DNA of 37,999 bases from Propionibacteriaceae bacterium (lineage in GTDB: Bacteria > Actinomycetota > Actinomycetes > Propionibacteriales > Propionibacteriaceae): contig JAISJO010000045.1 in NCBI GenBank assembly GCA_031261485.1, forward strand, positions 1 to 37,999, read 5' to 3'. Positions 25,589-37,999 of this stretch are shown here, piece after piece (position 1 is the stretch's first letter; each line of letters opens with the position of its first letter). The notes beneath the pieces are model-generated. The model was not told the DNA's origin and did not search any database. It saw only the letters and a program-made list of their open reading frames with translations. A program made the position numbers and the translations under genes.

Positions 25589-26959
25589 TTACCCAATCTG
25601 GGGCAGAAGGCTCAGACTTGCCTCAAGGTCCTCATCCGTGGGGATGTAGTCGGTCATCGTGTGGTTGTTGTACTGATCGTAAGCGGCCAGGTCGAAATAC
25701 CCGGTGCCCGTCAGGCCAAACAAGATAACCTTCTCTTCGCCGGTCTCTTTGCAAGCCAGGGCCTCATCGATGGCGCCCTTGATGGCGTGCGCGGATTCGG
25801 GGGCAGGAAGAATCGTCTCCACCTTGGCGAACTTCTTGGCCGCGTCGAACACCGCAGTTTGCTCGTAGGAACGGGCCTCCATCCGGCCATCGTGGTACAA
25901 CTTGGACAAGATGGGGCTCATCCCGTGGTAGCGCAGTCCGCCCGCGTGGTTGGCGCTGGGCTTGAAACCGGAGCCGAGGGTGTACATCTTGGCGAGCGGG
26001 GTCATGTGGCCCGCGTCGGCGAAGTCGTAAGCGTAGCGGCCTCTGGTCAGCGAGGGGCACGAAGCCGGTTCGACGGCGAGGATGCGCGGGTCGGCCTTGC
26101 CTGTCAACTTGTCTTGCATGAAGGGGGCGATGAGCCCGCCAAGGTTCGACCCGCCGCCAGCACAACCAACAATGATATCGGGGTATTCACCGAGTTGCTC
26201 TAAAGCGATCTTCGACTCAAGGCCGATGATGGACTGGTGGAGCAGGACCTGGTTGAGGACGGAGCCGAGGACATAGCGGTAACCAGGGGTGGAGACCGCC
26301 ACCTCGATTGCCTCAGAAATCGCCGTGCCCAGCGAACCGGAGTTGTTGGGGTCGGCGGCGAGGATGCGGCGGCCCACCTCAGTGGTGTCGGAGGGTGAGG
26401 CGAATACTTTCGCGTCGAAGGTCTCCATGACAGCGCGGCGGAAGGGCTTCTGCTCGTAAGACACCTTGACCATGTACACGATGAGCGGCAGTCCGAAATA
26501 CTGTGCGGCTTCGGCCAATGCCGTGCCCCATTGGCCCGCGCCAGTCTCTGTGGAGAGGCCAGTCAGACCCTCAGCCTTGGCGTAATAGGCCTGGGCGACA
26601 GCCGAGTTCAGCTTGTGGGAGCCGGACGTGTTGTTGCCCTCGAACTTGTAATAGATGCGCGCGGGGGTGTCGAGAGCCTTCTCCAAGTCGTAGGCCCGAC
26701 ACAGCGGCGAGGGGCGGTACACCTTGTAGATGTCGAGGACTTCGCCGGGGATGTCGATCCAACGGTCGGTGGCATCCATCTCCTGATGGGCAAGGGCCTT
26801 GGCGAAAATCGGGTAGAGCATTTCCTCCTGGACGATCTGGCCGTCAGGAGTCAGCATCGGATCGGGCTGTTCGGGCATGTCCGCCCGCAGGTTGTACCAG
26901 GCTGTCGGAATCTCGTCTTCACGAAGATACAAACGATGGGGCACTGTTGTGGTGGGCAT
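25589..26959 (-). CDS. trpB: TrpB2-type tryptophan synthase beta chain
   Basis: The start is ATG 26959 (456 residues), with AAGGAGG 6-7 nt ahead; a longer frame to 27157 runs through the attenuator and is not real. It belongs to the TrpB2 (TIGR01415) branch, longer than classical TrpB. The PLP lysine lies in NNTSGSHKLNSA (Lys116). STETGAGQWGTALAEAAQYF and the phosphate cup GCAGGGSNLGG are present. No trpA is adjacent, as usual for TrpB2, which can use free indole and serine. Some workers have proposed other roles for TrpB2, but here a Trp-codon attenuator precedes the gene, so the cell treats it as a tryptophan-biosynthetic gene. Confidence 0.93.
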   Translation of the reverse strand: MPTTTVPHRLYLREDEIPTAWYNLRADMPEQPDPMLTPDGQIVQEEMLYPIFAKALAHQEMDATDRWIDIPGEVLDIYKVYRPSPLCRAYDLEKALDTPARIYYKFEGNNTSGSHKLNSAVAQAYYAKAEGLTGLSTETGAGQWGTALAEAAQYFGLPLIVYMVKVSYEQKPFRRAVMETFDAKVFASPSDTTEVGRRILAADPNNSGSLGTAISEAIEVAVSTPGYRYVLGSVLNQVLLHQSIIGLESKIALEQLGEYPDIIVGCAGGGSNLGGLIAPFMQDKLTGKADPRILAVEPASCPSLTRGRYAYDFADAGHMTPLAKMYTLGSGFKPSANHAGGLRYHGMSPILSKLYHDGRMEARSYEQTAVFDAAKKFAKVETILPAPESAHAIKGAIDEALACKETGEEKVILFGLTGTGYFDLAAYDQYNNHTMTDYIPTDEDLEASLSLLPQIG

Positions 26960-27012
26960 GGAGTCCTCCTTCTGGCCAATCCGGGGAGTTGGCCTGGTTT
27001 CAAGCCGATGCG

Positions 27013-27092
27013 ACAGAAAAACCGCCGAACATCGGCGGTTTCCTTGTTTTTCTTTGCATATGCGCGCGAAAATAGACCGCCTAGAAGGCGGG
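27013..27092 (-). promoter_or_regulatory. Tryptophan attenuator upstream of trpB2
   Basis: On the minus strand, after the tandem Trp codons, four segments can be read. Segment 1 is CCCGCC (27092-27087), segment 2 GGCGGT (27081-27076), segment 3 AACCGCCGA (27040-27032) and segment 4 TCGGCGGTT (27028-27020). Segments 1:2 and 3:4 pair, while 2:3 (GGCGGT with ACCGCC) is the antiterminator. A ribosome stalled at the Trp codons covers segment 1 and frees segment 2 to block the terminator. This is the classical trp attenuation layout. Confidence 0.85.
27016..27041 (-). terminator. Attenuator terminator of trpB2
   Basis: The stem AAACCGCCGA/TCGGCGGTTT has 10 bp and a 3-nt loop, and is followed on the minus strand by TTTTTC. 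It lies 57 nt before the trpB2 ATG, inside the leader. On the plus strand it also has a T-rich tail, but no plus-strand gene ends nearby. Confidence 0.85.
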
Positions 27093-27116
27093 CCACCACG
27101 AGCTTGCGAAATGCAT
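27081..27116 (-). CDS. trpL: trp leader peptide (MHFASSWWPAF)
   Basis: A minus-strand ORF of 11 codons has two adjacent Trp codons (27098-27093) and a TAG stop at 27083-27081. It is too short for routine gene calling. It lies just upstream of the segment 1:2 hairpin and the terminator, exactly where an attenuation leader peptide should be; segment 1 overlaps its last codons. The ATG at 27116 is 6 nt after TAGTGT, the same leaderless spacing as other genes here; a GTG at 27122 in frame would add two residues. Known actinobacterial trp leaders also carry two or three adjacent Trp codons. Confidence 0.85.
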   Translation of the reverse strand: MHFASSWWPAF

Positions 27117-27122
27117 ACCCAC

Positions 27123-27157
27123 ACACTAGCGCATAATGGGAGTACGTGAAACCGCAA
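27123..27157 (-). promoter_or_regulatory. Promoter of the trp leader and trpB2
   Basis: Two readings are possible: TAGTGT (27128-27123) as a -10 placed 6 nt before the leader ATG, or TTGCGG (27157-27152) and TATGCG (27135-27130) 16 bp apart. Either gives a leaderless or near-leaderless leader peptide. Confidence 0.5.
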
Positions 27158-27189
27158 GGAGGTGGTGCGCAGTGTCGAGTGCTATTGCC

Positions 27190-27372
27190 GACAATACTGG
27201 TCGGGGTTGGGGGCCTGCCTCGGTGTCACCCCCAAAATCCTCTGACGCTAGCTTGTCTACCATGGCGCGACTTTCGTCGAGGGGCATCATCCGGTGTTTG
27301 GGGGTCCCCCGACACCGGGCGCGGCCTGCGGAGCGGGACCTGTGACGCAGGGGACTGGGTGGTCGGCATCAG
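27190..27372. repeat. Dispersed repeat of about 175-180 bp, copy 1
   Basis: From about 27190 to 27372 the sequence matches 35939-36190, apart from an 81-bp insertion in the second copy. The blocks ACCCCCAAAATCCTCTGACG and GGCCTGCGGAGCGGGACCTG are identical in both. It contains a strong palindrome, CCGGTGTTTGGGGG-T-CCCCCGACACCGG. It separates the trp leader from the lipoprotein gene and may supply the latter's start codon. Confidence 0.75.
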
Positions 27373-36628: not shown

Positions 36629-36656
36629 TTGGGGCGAGTACCGCAGATGCGATAAT
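36629..36656 (+). promoter_or_regulatory. trpE promoter, leaderless
   Basis: TTGGGG (36629-36634) and GATAAT (36651-36656) are 16 bp apart. The -10 ends 6 nt before the GTG, so transcription should begin at or next to the start codon. No ribosome site exists. Confidence 0.6.
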
Positions 36657-36662
36657 TGCCTA

Positions 36663-37999
36663 GTGACATTCCAGATACTCACTGACGGTGAGCACGTCGC
36701 CCGTTGGGCCGAGACCTTTCGGACGGCCCCGGTCGCGGCGCGTCTAACTGGGCTGGATCGCACGGCTCTTGAGGTCTTTCTTGCCTGTAAGGCGATCAGT
36801 CGTCACTGCTTCATCTTGGAGTCTCTGGAGGACGCTGAGGATTCGGGACGGTACACCTTCATTGGGTACGACCCTGTCATGGAACTCACTTGCAAAGATG
36901 GCACGCTGACCATCCACTCCGGTGCAGATGTCGAGATGGAGGTCGATTCCCCCGCCCCGTACATCACCAAGGTCGTGGCGGACACCCTCGGACCCCGCGT
37001 CGAGGGACTGCCTCCCTTTACCGGCGGCTTGGCAGGCTACATTTCCTTCGACTACCTGACGTACGCCGAACCGAGTGTGCGTCTGGACGCCGAAGACGAA
37101 GAGAACTTCCGTGACATCGACCTCATGCTCTTCGACAAGGTCATCGCCTTTGACAACCTTACAAATGAAGTATTTCTCATTGCCACAATCAAGCTAGACC
37201 TGTGGCAGGAGAACTACAACCGCGCCTTGCGAACCCTGGATGACATGGCCTCTCTGGTCACTGACGGGGCCCTGCTGACTCCTCAGCCCCTGCAAGTCAC
37301 AGGCGAGTTCGAAGCCCTGTTCGACAAGGACGGATTCGCCGACGTCATCGCTCGCGCCAAGAACCACATCTACGAGGGCGACATCTTTCAAGTGGTGCTC
37401 TCCAATCGGCTTCGCGCTCCCGCCGTCGGGAATCTCTTCGACACCTACACGCTGTTGCGCCAGACGAATCCCAGCCCGTACATGTTTTACTTCTCCTCCG
37501 ATGACCTCGAAATTGCCGGTGCCAGCCCGGAGACACTGGTCAAACTGACAGGCGAGGATGTGGTCACCTTTCCTCTGGCAGGAACTCGCCCGAGAGGCAA
37601 GACCGAGGAGGAAGACAGCCAGGCAGAAGCGGACTTGCTGGCCGATGAGAAGGAACTGGCTGAGCACAATATGCTCGTTGACTTGGGGCGCAACGACGTC
37701 GGCAAGATCGCCCAGATCGGGACCGTCGAGGTACGCGACTACCTATCGGTCCTGCGGTTCTCGCACGTCATGCACATCGGGTCCGCCGTGACTGGGAAGG
37801 TACGTCCAGGAGTATCGGCTATGGATGTTGTGGATGCCGTCCTGCCCGCCGGGACTCTCTCGGGTGCGCCCAAGATTCGTGCCTGCGAGATCATCAACGA
37901 CCTGGAAGGGATCAAGCGCGGAGTGTACGGTGGCGCCATCGGGTACATCTCCTCCACGGGGGACCTCGATACCTGCATCGCCATCCGGCTCGCCTACAA
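36663..37999 (+). CDS. trpE: Anthranilate synthase component I, partial (C-terminus beyond window)
   Basis: The first 445 residues are present, starting at GTG 36663 (VTFQILTDGEHVARWAETFR). The enzyme converts chorismate to anthranilate with a glutamine amidotransferase partner. The N-terminal feedback site shows the ILES version of the LLES motif (Ser54) that binds tryptophan. Chorismate-domain motifs follow: IAGASPETLVKL, PLAGTRPRG, DEKELAEHNMLVDLGRNDVG, HIGSAVTG and GTLSGAPKIRACEIIN. It probably begins a trp operon that continues past the window. The promoter predicts a leaderless message; unlike trpB2, no attenuator is visible. Confidence 0.95.
   Translation, partial: MTFQILTDGEHVARWAETFRTAPVAARLTGLDRTALEVFLACKAISRHCFILESLEDAEDSGRYTFIGYDPVMELTCKDGTLTIHSGADVEMEVDSPAPYITKVVADTLGPRVEGLPPFTGGLAGYISFDYLTYAEPSVRLDAEDEENFRDIDLMLFDKVIAFDNLTNEVFLIATIKLDLWQENYNRALRTLDDMASLVTDGALLTPQPLQVTGEFEALFDKDGFADVIARAKNHIYEGDIFQVVLSNRLRAPAVGNLFDTYTLLRQTNPSPYMFYFSSDDLEIAGASPETLVKLTGEDVVTFPLAGTRPRGKTEEEDSQAEADLLADEKELAEHNMLVDLGRNDVGKIAQIGTVEVRDYLSVLRFSHVMHIGSAVTGKVRPGVSAMDVVDAVLPAGTLSGAPKIRACEIINDLEGIKRGVYGGAIGYISSTGDLDTCIAIRLAY

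Follow-up and report, generated by a model that had tools for sequence, protein, structure and literature searches.

What signal controls trpB2 in a 37,999-nt stretch of DNA from a Propionibacteriaceae bacterium (the window), and what can that control tell us about the enzyme? The gene encodes a standalone TrpB-like PLP enzyme of the clostridial type (Table 1), with purB convergent downstream and glyS divergent upstream. Its product passes the cut-offs of NF009057 (672.5 bits, cut-off 366) and TIGR01415 (580.8 bits, cut-off 518.85) and does not reach that of the canonical TrpB model TIGR00263 (140.3 bits, cut-off 392.45). Judging from sequence, trpB2 appears to be controlled by ribosome-mediated transcription attenuation responding to Trp, a reading to which we give a probability of about 0.93. 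Through this regulation a debated enzyme family, TrpB2, is tied to tryptophan supply.

Leader peptide and alternative hairpins upstream of trpB2

The minus strand between 27013 and 27157 carries an 11-codon ORF with tandem Trp codons, as the preliminary description of this DNA had reported. Coordinates and folding energies bear out the rest of the anatomy given there, with segments that pair 1:2 and 3:4, a terminator T-run and then trpB2 with a ribosome site (Table 1). The 2:3 pairing, first described as GGCGGT with ACCGCC, also exists, but the stem is longer than that, being extended by an inner UUUUC/GAAAA stem. Stabilities calculated with ViennaRNA for the window leader are -9.6 (1:2), -12.4 (2:3) and -14.8 kcal/mol (3:4). 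Antiterminator and terminator are mutually exclusive, and the spacing is predicted to let stalling at the Trp codons free the antiterminator.

Table 1. Positions of the trpB2 leader elements, trpB2 and trpE in the window
Feature	Position	Strand	Remark
Putative -10 box, TAGTGT	27123..27128	-	6 nt before leader ATG; predicts leaderless leader mRNA
Leader ORF, MHFASSWWPAF, 11 codons	ATG 27116 to TAG stop 27081	-	
Tandem Trp codons	27098-27093	-	codons 7-8 of the leader ORF
Segment 1, CCGCC	27091-27087	-	pairs with segment 2; from folding, helix conserved in aligned leaders
Segment 2, GGCGGT	27081-27076	-	antiterminator 5′ arm; overlaps leader stop codon
Segment 3, AACCGCCGA	27040-27032	-	antiterminator 3′ arm and terminator 5′ arm
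Segment 4, TCGGCGGTT	27028-27020, T-run to 27017	-	intrinsic terminator 3′ arm; covarying helix
Shine-Dalgarno of trpB2, AAGGAGGA	26971-26964	-	
trpB2, 456 aa	25589..26959 (ATG 26959)	-	standalone TrpB-like PLP enzyme, clostridial type
trpE	36663..37999	+	runs off contig; no attenuator of this type found

From this arrangement we propose the following course of events. Transcription would start at or beside the leader ATG, and a ribosome would load on the predicted leaderless mRNA. At low levels of charged tRNA-Trp, the ribosome would stall at Trp7-Trp8 and cover segment 1, leaving segment 2 free to pair with segment 3; the terminator would then be blocked and trpB2 transcribed. With Trp plentiful, a ribosome at the stop codon would cover segment 2, and 3:4 would end transcription. 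Without translation, 1:2 and 3:4 would form together, giving a basal off state. The geometry fits attenuation: a ribosome stalled on the second Trp codon would leave segment 2 exposed, and one at the stop codon would cover it.

We rejected a T-box or another known Rfam leader as the identity of the element, since the Rfam models gave no qualifying match. The T-box model (RF00230) has no match at the gathering score in the window, and none at E values up to 5 within 26900-27250. The Trp_leader family (RF00513) belongs to the same mechanism class as leader-peptide attenuation; the window element scores 16.3 bits against a gathering score of 41 and is not a member of that model.

Leaders of the same type in the family and class

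The trpB2 of a congeneric genome (G179), cut by a contig end, is the only other trpB2 found with a leader of this type. Its leader, MTKRSNWWPAD, precedes the same four segments and a terminator, and a check of the kind first suggested for this locus, on Trp codons and segments in relatives, finds all of them kept there. A pattern search allowing one mismatch across 198 family genomes returned 11 rows, of which seven proved to be leaders, namely those of two trpB2, two trpD and two trpB genes and of one TrpX-like transporter gene. The others (L278-L281) were dropped as chance, without such a leader and terminator, as was a two-mismatch place (L290). A three-mismatch search, whose listed matches were mostly chance-like in these GC-rich genomes, was replaced by the one-mismatch search and by covariance models.

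In each of the seven leaders (7/7), the start of segment 2 lies 14 nt beyond that of the second Trp codon. The 3:4 helix is stabler than 2:3 in five of the seven, the window included, the exceptions being the leaders of G179 trpB2 and of the TrpX-like gene of G180. With 3:4 the stabler helix in most leaders, switching would have to be kinetic.

A covariance model built from these seven (R1) gave 32 rows in 26/198 family genomes, of which 23, in 21/198 genomes, are leaders before Trp genes: trpB (10), trpD (4), TrpX-like (3), trpS (3), trpB2 (2) and TrpE-like (1). The remaining rows comprise four dropped as chance-like (L317, L318, L321, L322), one left out (L323) and four opposite-strand shadows. 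Tandem Trp codons occur in 21/23 leaders (L308 and L309 lack them), and the WWPA ending is kept in many relatives. Within the window's genus, 8/19 genomes have a leader of this type. The targets trpD in G193 and trpB on contig C15 of G189 were named by sequence likeness and tblastn place, not by HMM. Upstream of family TrpB2 genes of the other type, a WW short ORF within 500 nt was found in 0/69 regions, with 16 further matched rows lying outside this count.

Twenty-one of the 23 leaders could be aligned; L319 and L320 were counted as leaders but fall under the threshold of alignment A3. Over the 21 aligned leaders, 95.9% of cells in helices 1:2 and 3:4 are paired; alignments A1 and A3 were built around the window element, so that pairing counts lean to it. 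Helix 1:2 pairs in 21/21 leaders, in one of them with a U-G pair. The two helices hold 22 double-change cells, compared with 7.7 in shuffles, and their covariation score was reached by 0/500 shuffles; two weaker measures were less exclusive, with 30/500 shuffles reaching the number of pairs that hold a double change and 16/500 that of further pair types. The terminator helix 3:4 itself covaries. Covariation gives no support to the 2:3 antiterminator, its pairs being almost invariant. Loss of the 3:4 stem in relatives, which had been named as an outcome that would speak against attenuation, is not what the family displays: its leaders before Trp genes keep the four segments.

These observations also bear on whether the element works mainly on translation, or as a small RNA or peptide in trans, as is reported for peTrpL of Sinorhizobium, rather than by termination. 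Leader peptides of attenuators can act in trans (PMC7298713), but we consider this very improbable here, given a covarying terminator with a U-run and a trpB2 Shine-Dalgarno sequence ~45 nt past it, inside none of the four segments.

A second model (R2) matched 95/394 genomes of the class at E values up to 0.001, the window's own genome included. By tblastn, the 29 best class loci besides the window precede a trpE(G)-like gene (22), trpS (4) or trpD (3), and all have WW; for the trpE(G) assignments the reference was L320, a fused TrpE-like protein identified by Pfam. A constitutive intrinsic terminator or 5′-UTR hairpin beside a chance WW ORF, with no Trp regulation, is accordingly a most improbable account of the window. 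GC-rich hairpins with a T-run are common on their own, but when the 201-nt region was shuffled 20,000 times with dinucleotides preserved, some WW short ORF arose in 244 shuffles and a WW ORF together with a terminator in 0, and such leaders precede Trp genes at 23 places in the family (21 with WW) and at 29/29 class loci. Attenuators of this type form a searchable actinomycete set with trpB, trpB2, trpD, trpE-like, trpS and TrpX-like transporter targets.

To survey leader starts we took, from 52 leaders of the family and class, the 41 with an ORF that starts where the model does (16 from the family, 25 from the class). A TANNNT box ends 4-8 nt upstream of the start in 39/41, against 35/8200 background places, and an SD-like site precedes 0/41 of the starts examined. 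Because the box stands just upstream in most and an SD-like site in none, leader ORFs of this type are probably leaderless, and such a start is predicted in the window organism. In agreement with this, leaderless starts of trpL1 and trpL2 have been reported in S. lividans on the basis of RNA-seq (PMC8079986).

Trp attenuators in actinomycetes are already described (PMC1262725, PMC4833913). As far as they are reported, S. lividans trpL1 and trpL2 share with our leader a leaderless Trp leader peptide, hairpins and single-gene targets (trpE, trpS), and differ from it in target gene and in the WWPA ending (PMC8079986). A class leader before trpS (L349), MTTRTCTQLWWAA, is very close to the published trpL2, MMTRTCTQLWRAA, which as presented there has one Trp codon and no U-run, unlike the window leader (PMC8079986). 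Tandem UGG, GC-rich complementary triples in alternative hairpins and a U-tract terminator are likewise described for attenuators in Streptomyces and Corynebacterium (Seliverstov 2005, PMC1262725). Those attenuators are reported before trp operons, trpS and the C. diphtheriae trpB2A operon, whose trpB is the trpB2 of that study; that source, in its accessible text, names no standalone TrpB2-family gene (PMC1262725). The attenuator type is thus known and reaches across the class, and its trpB2 target is unusual.

Two further features of the family leaders concern their targets. The TrpX-like proteins match NF041285 with E values of 1e-77 or better and 261-272 bits, below the curated cut-off of 390; at L303, L304 and L298, genes for these ABC transporter substrate-binding proteins stand under the same WW attenuator. 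In 3/19 genomes of the genus to which the window belongs (G186, G188 and G189), no trpA match was found; all three have an attenuator before trpB, and the gene under Trp-starvation control would there encode a beta subunit for which the genome has no alpha partner. Attenuated trpB coexists with trpA in G190, G194, G029, G046 and G088.

Clostridial affinity of trpB2 and T-box control in its relatives

The genome of the window holds a canonical pathway as well, with trpE in the window and trpG, trpD, trpCF, trpB and trpA on another contig (C86). Since trpB1 and trpA are present within a complete canonical set, trpB2 is an extra enzyme beside trpE/G/D/CF/B/A, and the proposal in the preliminary description that regulation acts on the last step oversimplifies the case. 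Its companion claim, that trpE lacks such a leader, agrees with our data: there is no WW short ORF on the trpE strand within 4 kb upstream, and two RNA models detect no second true copy of the attenuator in the genome, with the proviso that the stricter filters of Infernal can lose weak matches. The sole other model match is an opposite-strand shadow of the trpB2 attenuator. A GATAAT box lies 6 nt before the GTG start of trpE (window 36640-36665, plus strand); trpE may be leaderless, leaving no room for an attenuator.

Among the best 80 of 594 matches, the nearest relatives of the window TrpB2 are from Clostridia, with a top identity of 79%. Matches in its own family are mostly 48-54% identical, with one second copy at 44% and the G179 fragment at 61%. 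In a tree built from 163 sequences with FastTree, the window TrpB2 is sister to a clostridial sequence (L003, support 0.957) within a clade of 45 (0.949). This Clostridia-nested position, together with the identities, makes it likely that trpB2 was acquired horizontally, with Clostridia the probable source. The G179 fragment (118 residues) is ~70% identical to clostridial TrpB2s versus 55% to family TrpB2s, and branches basally in the clostridial-type clade (support weak, 0.708) rather than next to the window.

The usual control of these relatives is of another kind. A T-box motif lies upstream of trpB2 in 54/80 of the nearest loci (the best 80 of 594 matches), and of the other 44 tips in the window's clade 32 bear T-box labels and 12 none, the labels denoting the motif and, for 12 of the 80 nearest loci, Rfam as well. 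Rfam reports a T-box at gathering score in 8 of the 13 trpB2 loci given to it, and below gathering in 4 of 12 loci given, the nearest relative L003 among them. In both alignments read (L003 and L012), the column that we take to be the specifier holds UGG (Trp).

The actinomycete leader-peptide attenuator appears to stand, then, where most clostridial-type relatives have a T-box, which it may have replaced. The two share gene family, charged tRNA-Trp signal and antitermination outcome. In a T-box the RNA itself binds tRNA, whereas in the window leader a translating ribosome would read the Trp codons. Seen side by side, these loci offer a clear example of one type of regulatory RNA in place of another before the same gene.

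Trp-rich leaders before trpB2 in Coriobacteriia-type genomes and the probable role of the enzyme

We scored 74 upstream regions of clostridial-type trpB2 genes, including those from the class drawn around G543 (296 genomes). Trp-rich leaders were found in 47, a T-box motif in 22 and neither in 8, one of which is only 118 nt long; three of the 22 T-box-motif regions also carry a Trp-rich leader, and these are probably chance motif matches. A terminator was found for 45/47 Trp-rich leaders, as well as for L045 and L058. We call this group Coriobacteriia-type, a name that rests on L045 (Eggerthellaceae) and L058 (Collinsella tanakaei), which have the same leaders as G656 and G296. The leaders (L155-L165 and L184-L243; for example L045:2700-2870) end in GAWWWNRR or ARAWWWTRTTPLSD and are followed by a terminator and then trpB2. 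Other Coriobacteriia-type loci (L166, L188, L205 and others) have a T-box motif before trpB2, placing both control types in one class.

The Coriobacteriia-type leaders seem to represent another attenuator design, with an antiterminator that would pair with the terminator apex and 3′ arm. Among 41 distinct leaders from the 47, the stop region pairs with its own terminator apex and 3′ arm at -24.1 kcal/mol and with those of others at -19.95 kcal/mol. This advantage was reached by 0/20,000 permutations, a test that related sequences inflate, and the own partner ranks first in 7/41.

Genomes with a Trp-rich leader before trpB2 mostly have no trpA (absent in 44/47; 11/11 plus 33/36), which points to indole salvage. 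For genomes with a T-box motif before trpB2, trpA is absent in 13/19, and a control search was positive in 14/14 genomes. Attenuated trpB2 could serve as a marker of indole salvage in trpA-less Coriobacteriia. In Thermococcus, TrpB paralogues are reported to contribute to the salvage of indole (cited in PMC11085991).

What does this control say about the enzyme? The argument first made for this locus, that attenuation by Trp codons speaks for a TrpB2 that serves tryptophan synthesis, holds for a link to tryptophan supply and goes too far for the reaction, which the attenuator does not prove. Indole salvage fits best: TrpB2 most likely makes Trp when it is short, from serine and free or salvaged indole. 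We regard it as unlikely that TrpB2 instead runs another reaction, such as serine deamination or another beta-substitution, with its Trp control reporting general amino-acid starvation. That the protein falls short of the canonical TrpB model, in a genome with a complete trp gene set, would suit such a reaction; against it, the tandem codons of the leader are those for Trp, the two T-box relatives read carry UGG at the specifier position, and TrpB2 would be the indole route in the 44/47 Coriobacteriia-type genomes without a trpA match.

In the open literature searched, which includes PMC1262725 and PMC4833913 but not a paper of 2015 on actinobacterial Trp attenuation that the latter cites, we found neither a standalone trpB2 target, nor an exchange of T-box for attenuator, nor the trpA-less setting; PMC1262725 was the one paper there to mention both trpB2 and an attenuator. 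Among the T-box genes on the tree, attenuator leaders occupy three separate places: that of the window, a clade of 34 in which 32 are Coriobacteriia leaders, and a Bacteroidales MAG (L069). On balance we lean towards the view that leader-peptide attenuation has more than once taken over Trp-tRNA control of trpB2 from a clostridial T-box, accompanied by gene transfer or divergence, and that the attenuated TrpB2 would be an indole-salvage tryptophan synthase in every case. The window's genus would have used the host WWPA cassette and Coriobacteriia a WWW leader of another kind, in which the antiterminator would pair with terminator apex and 3′ arm; the Bacteroidales MAG is a possible further case. 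In that MAG, a leader MTFNAYWWWHLFTAYKS begins ~164 nt upstream of trpB2, with a hairpin that by eye resembles a terminator.
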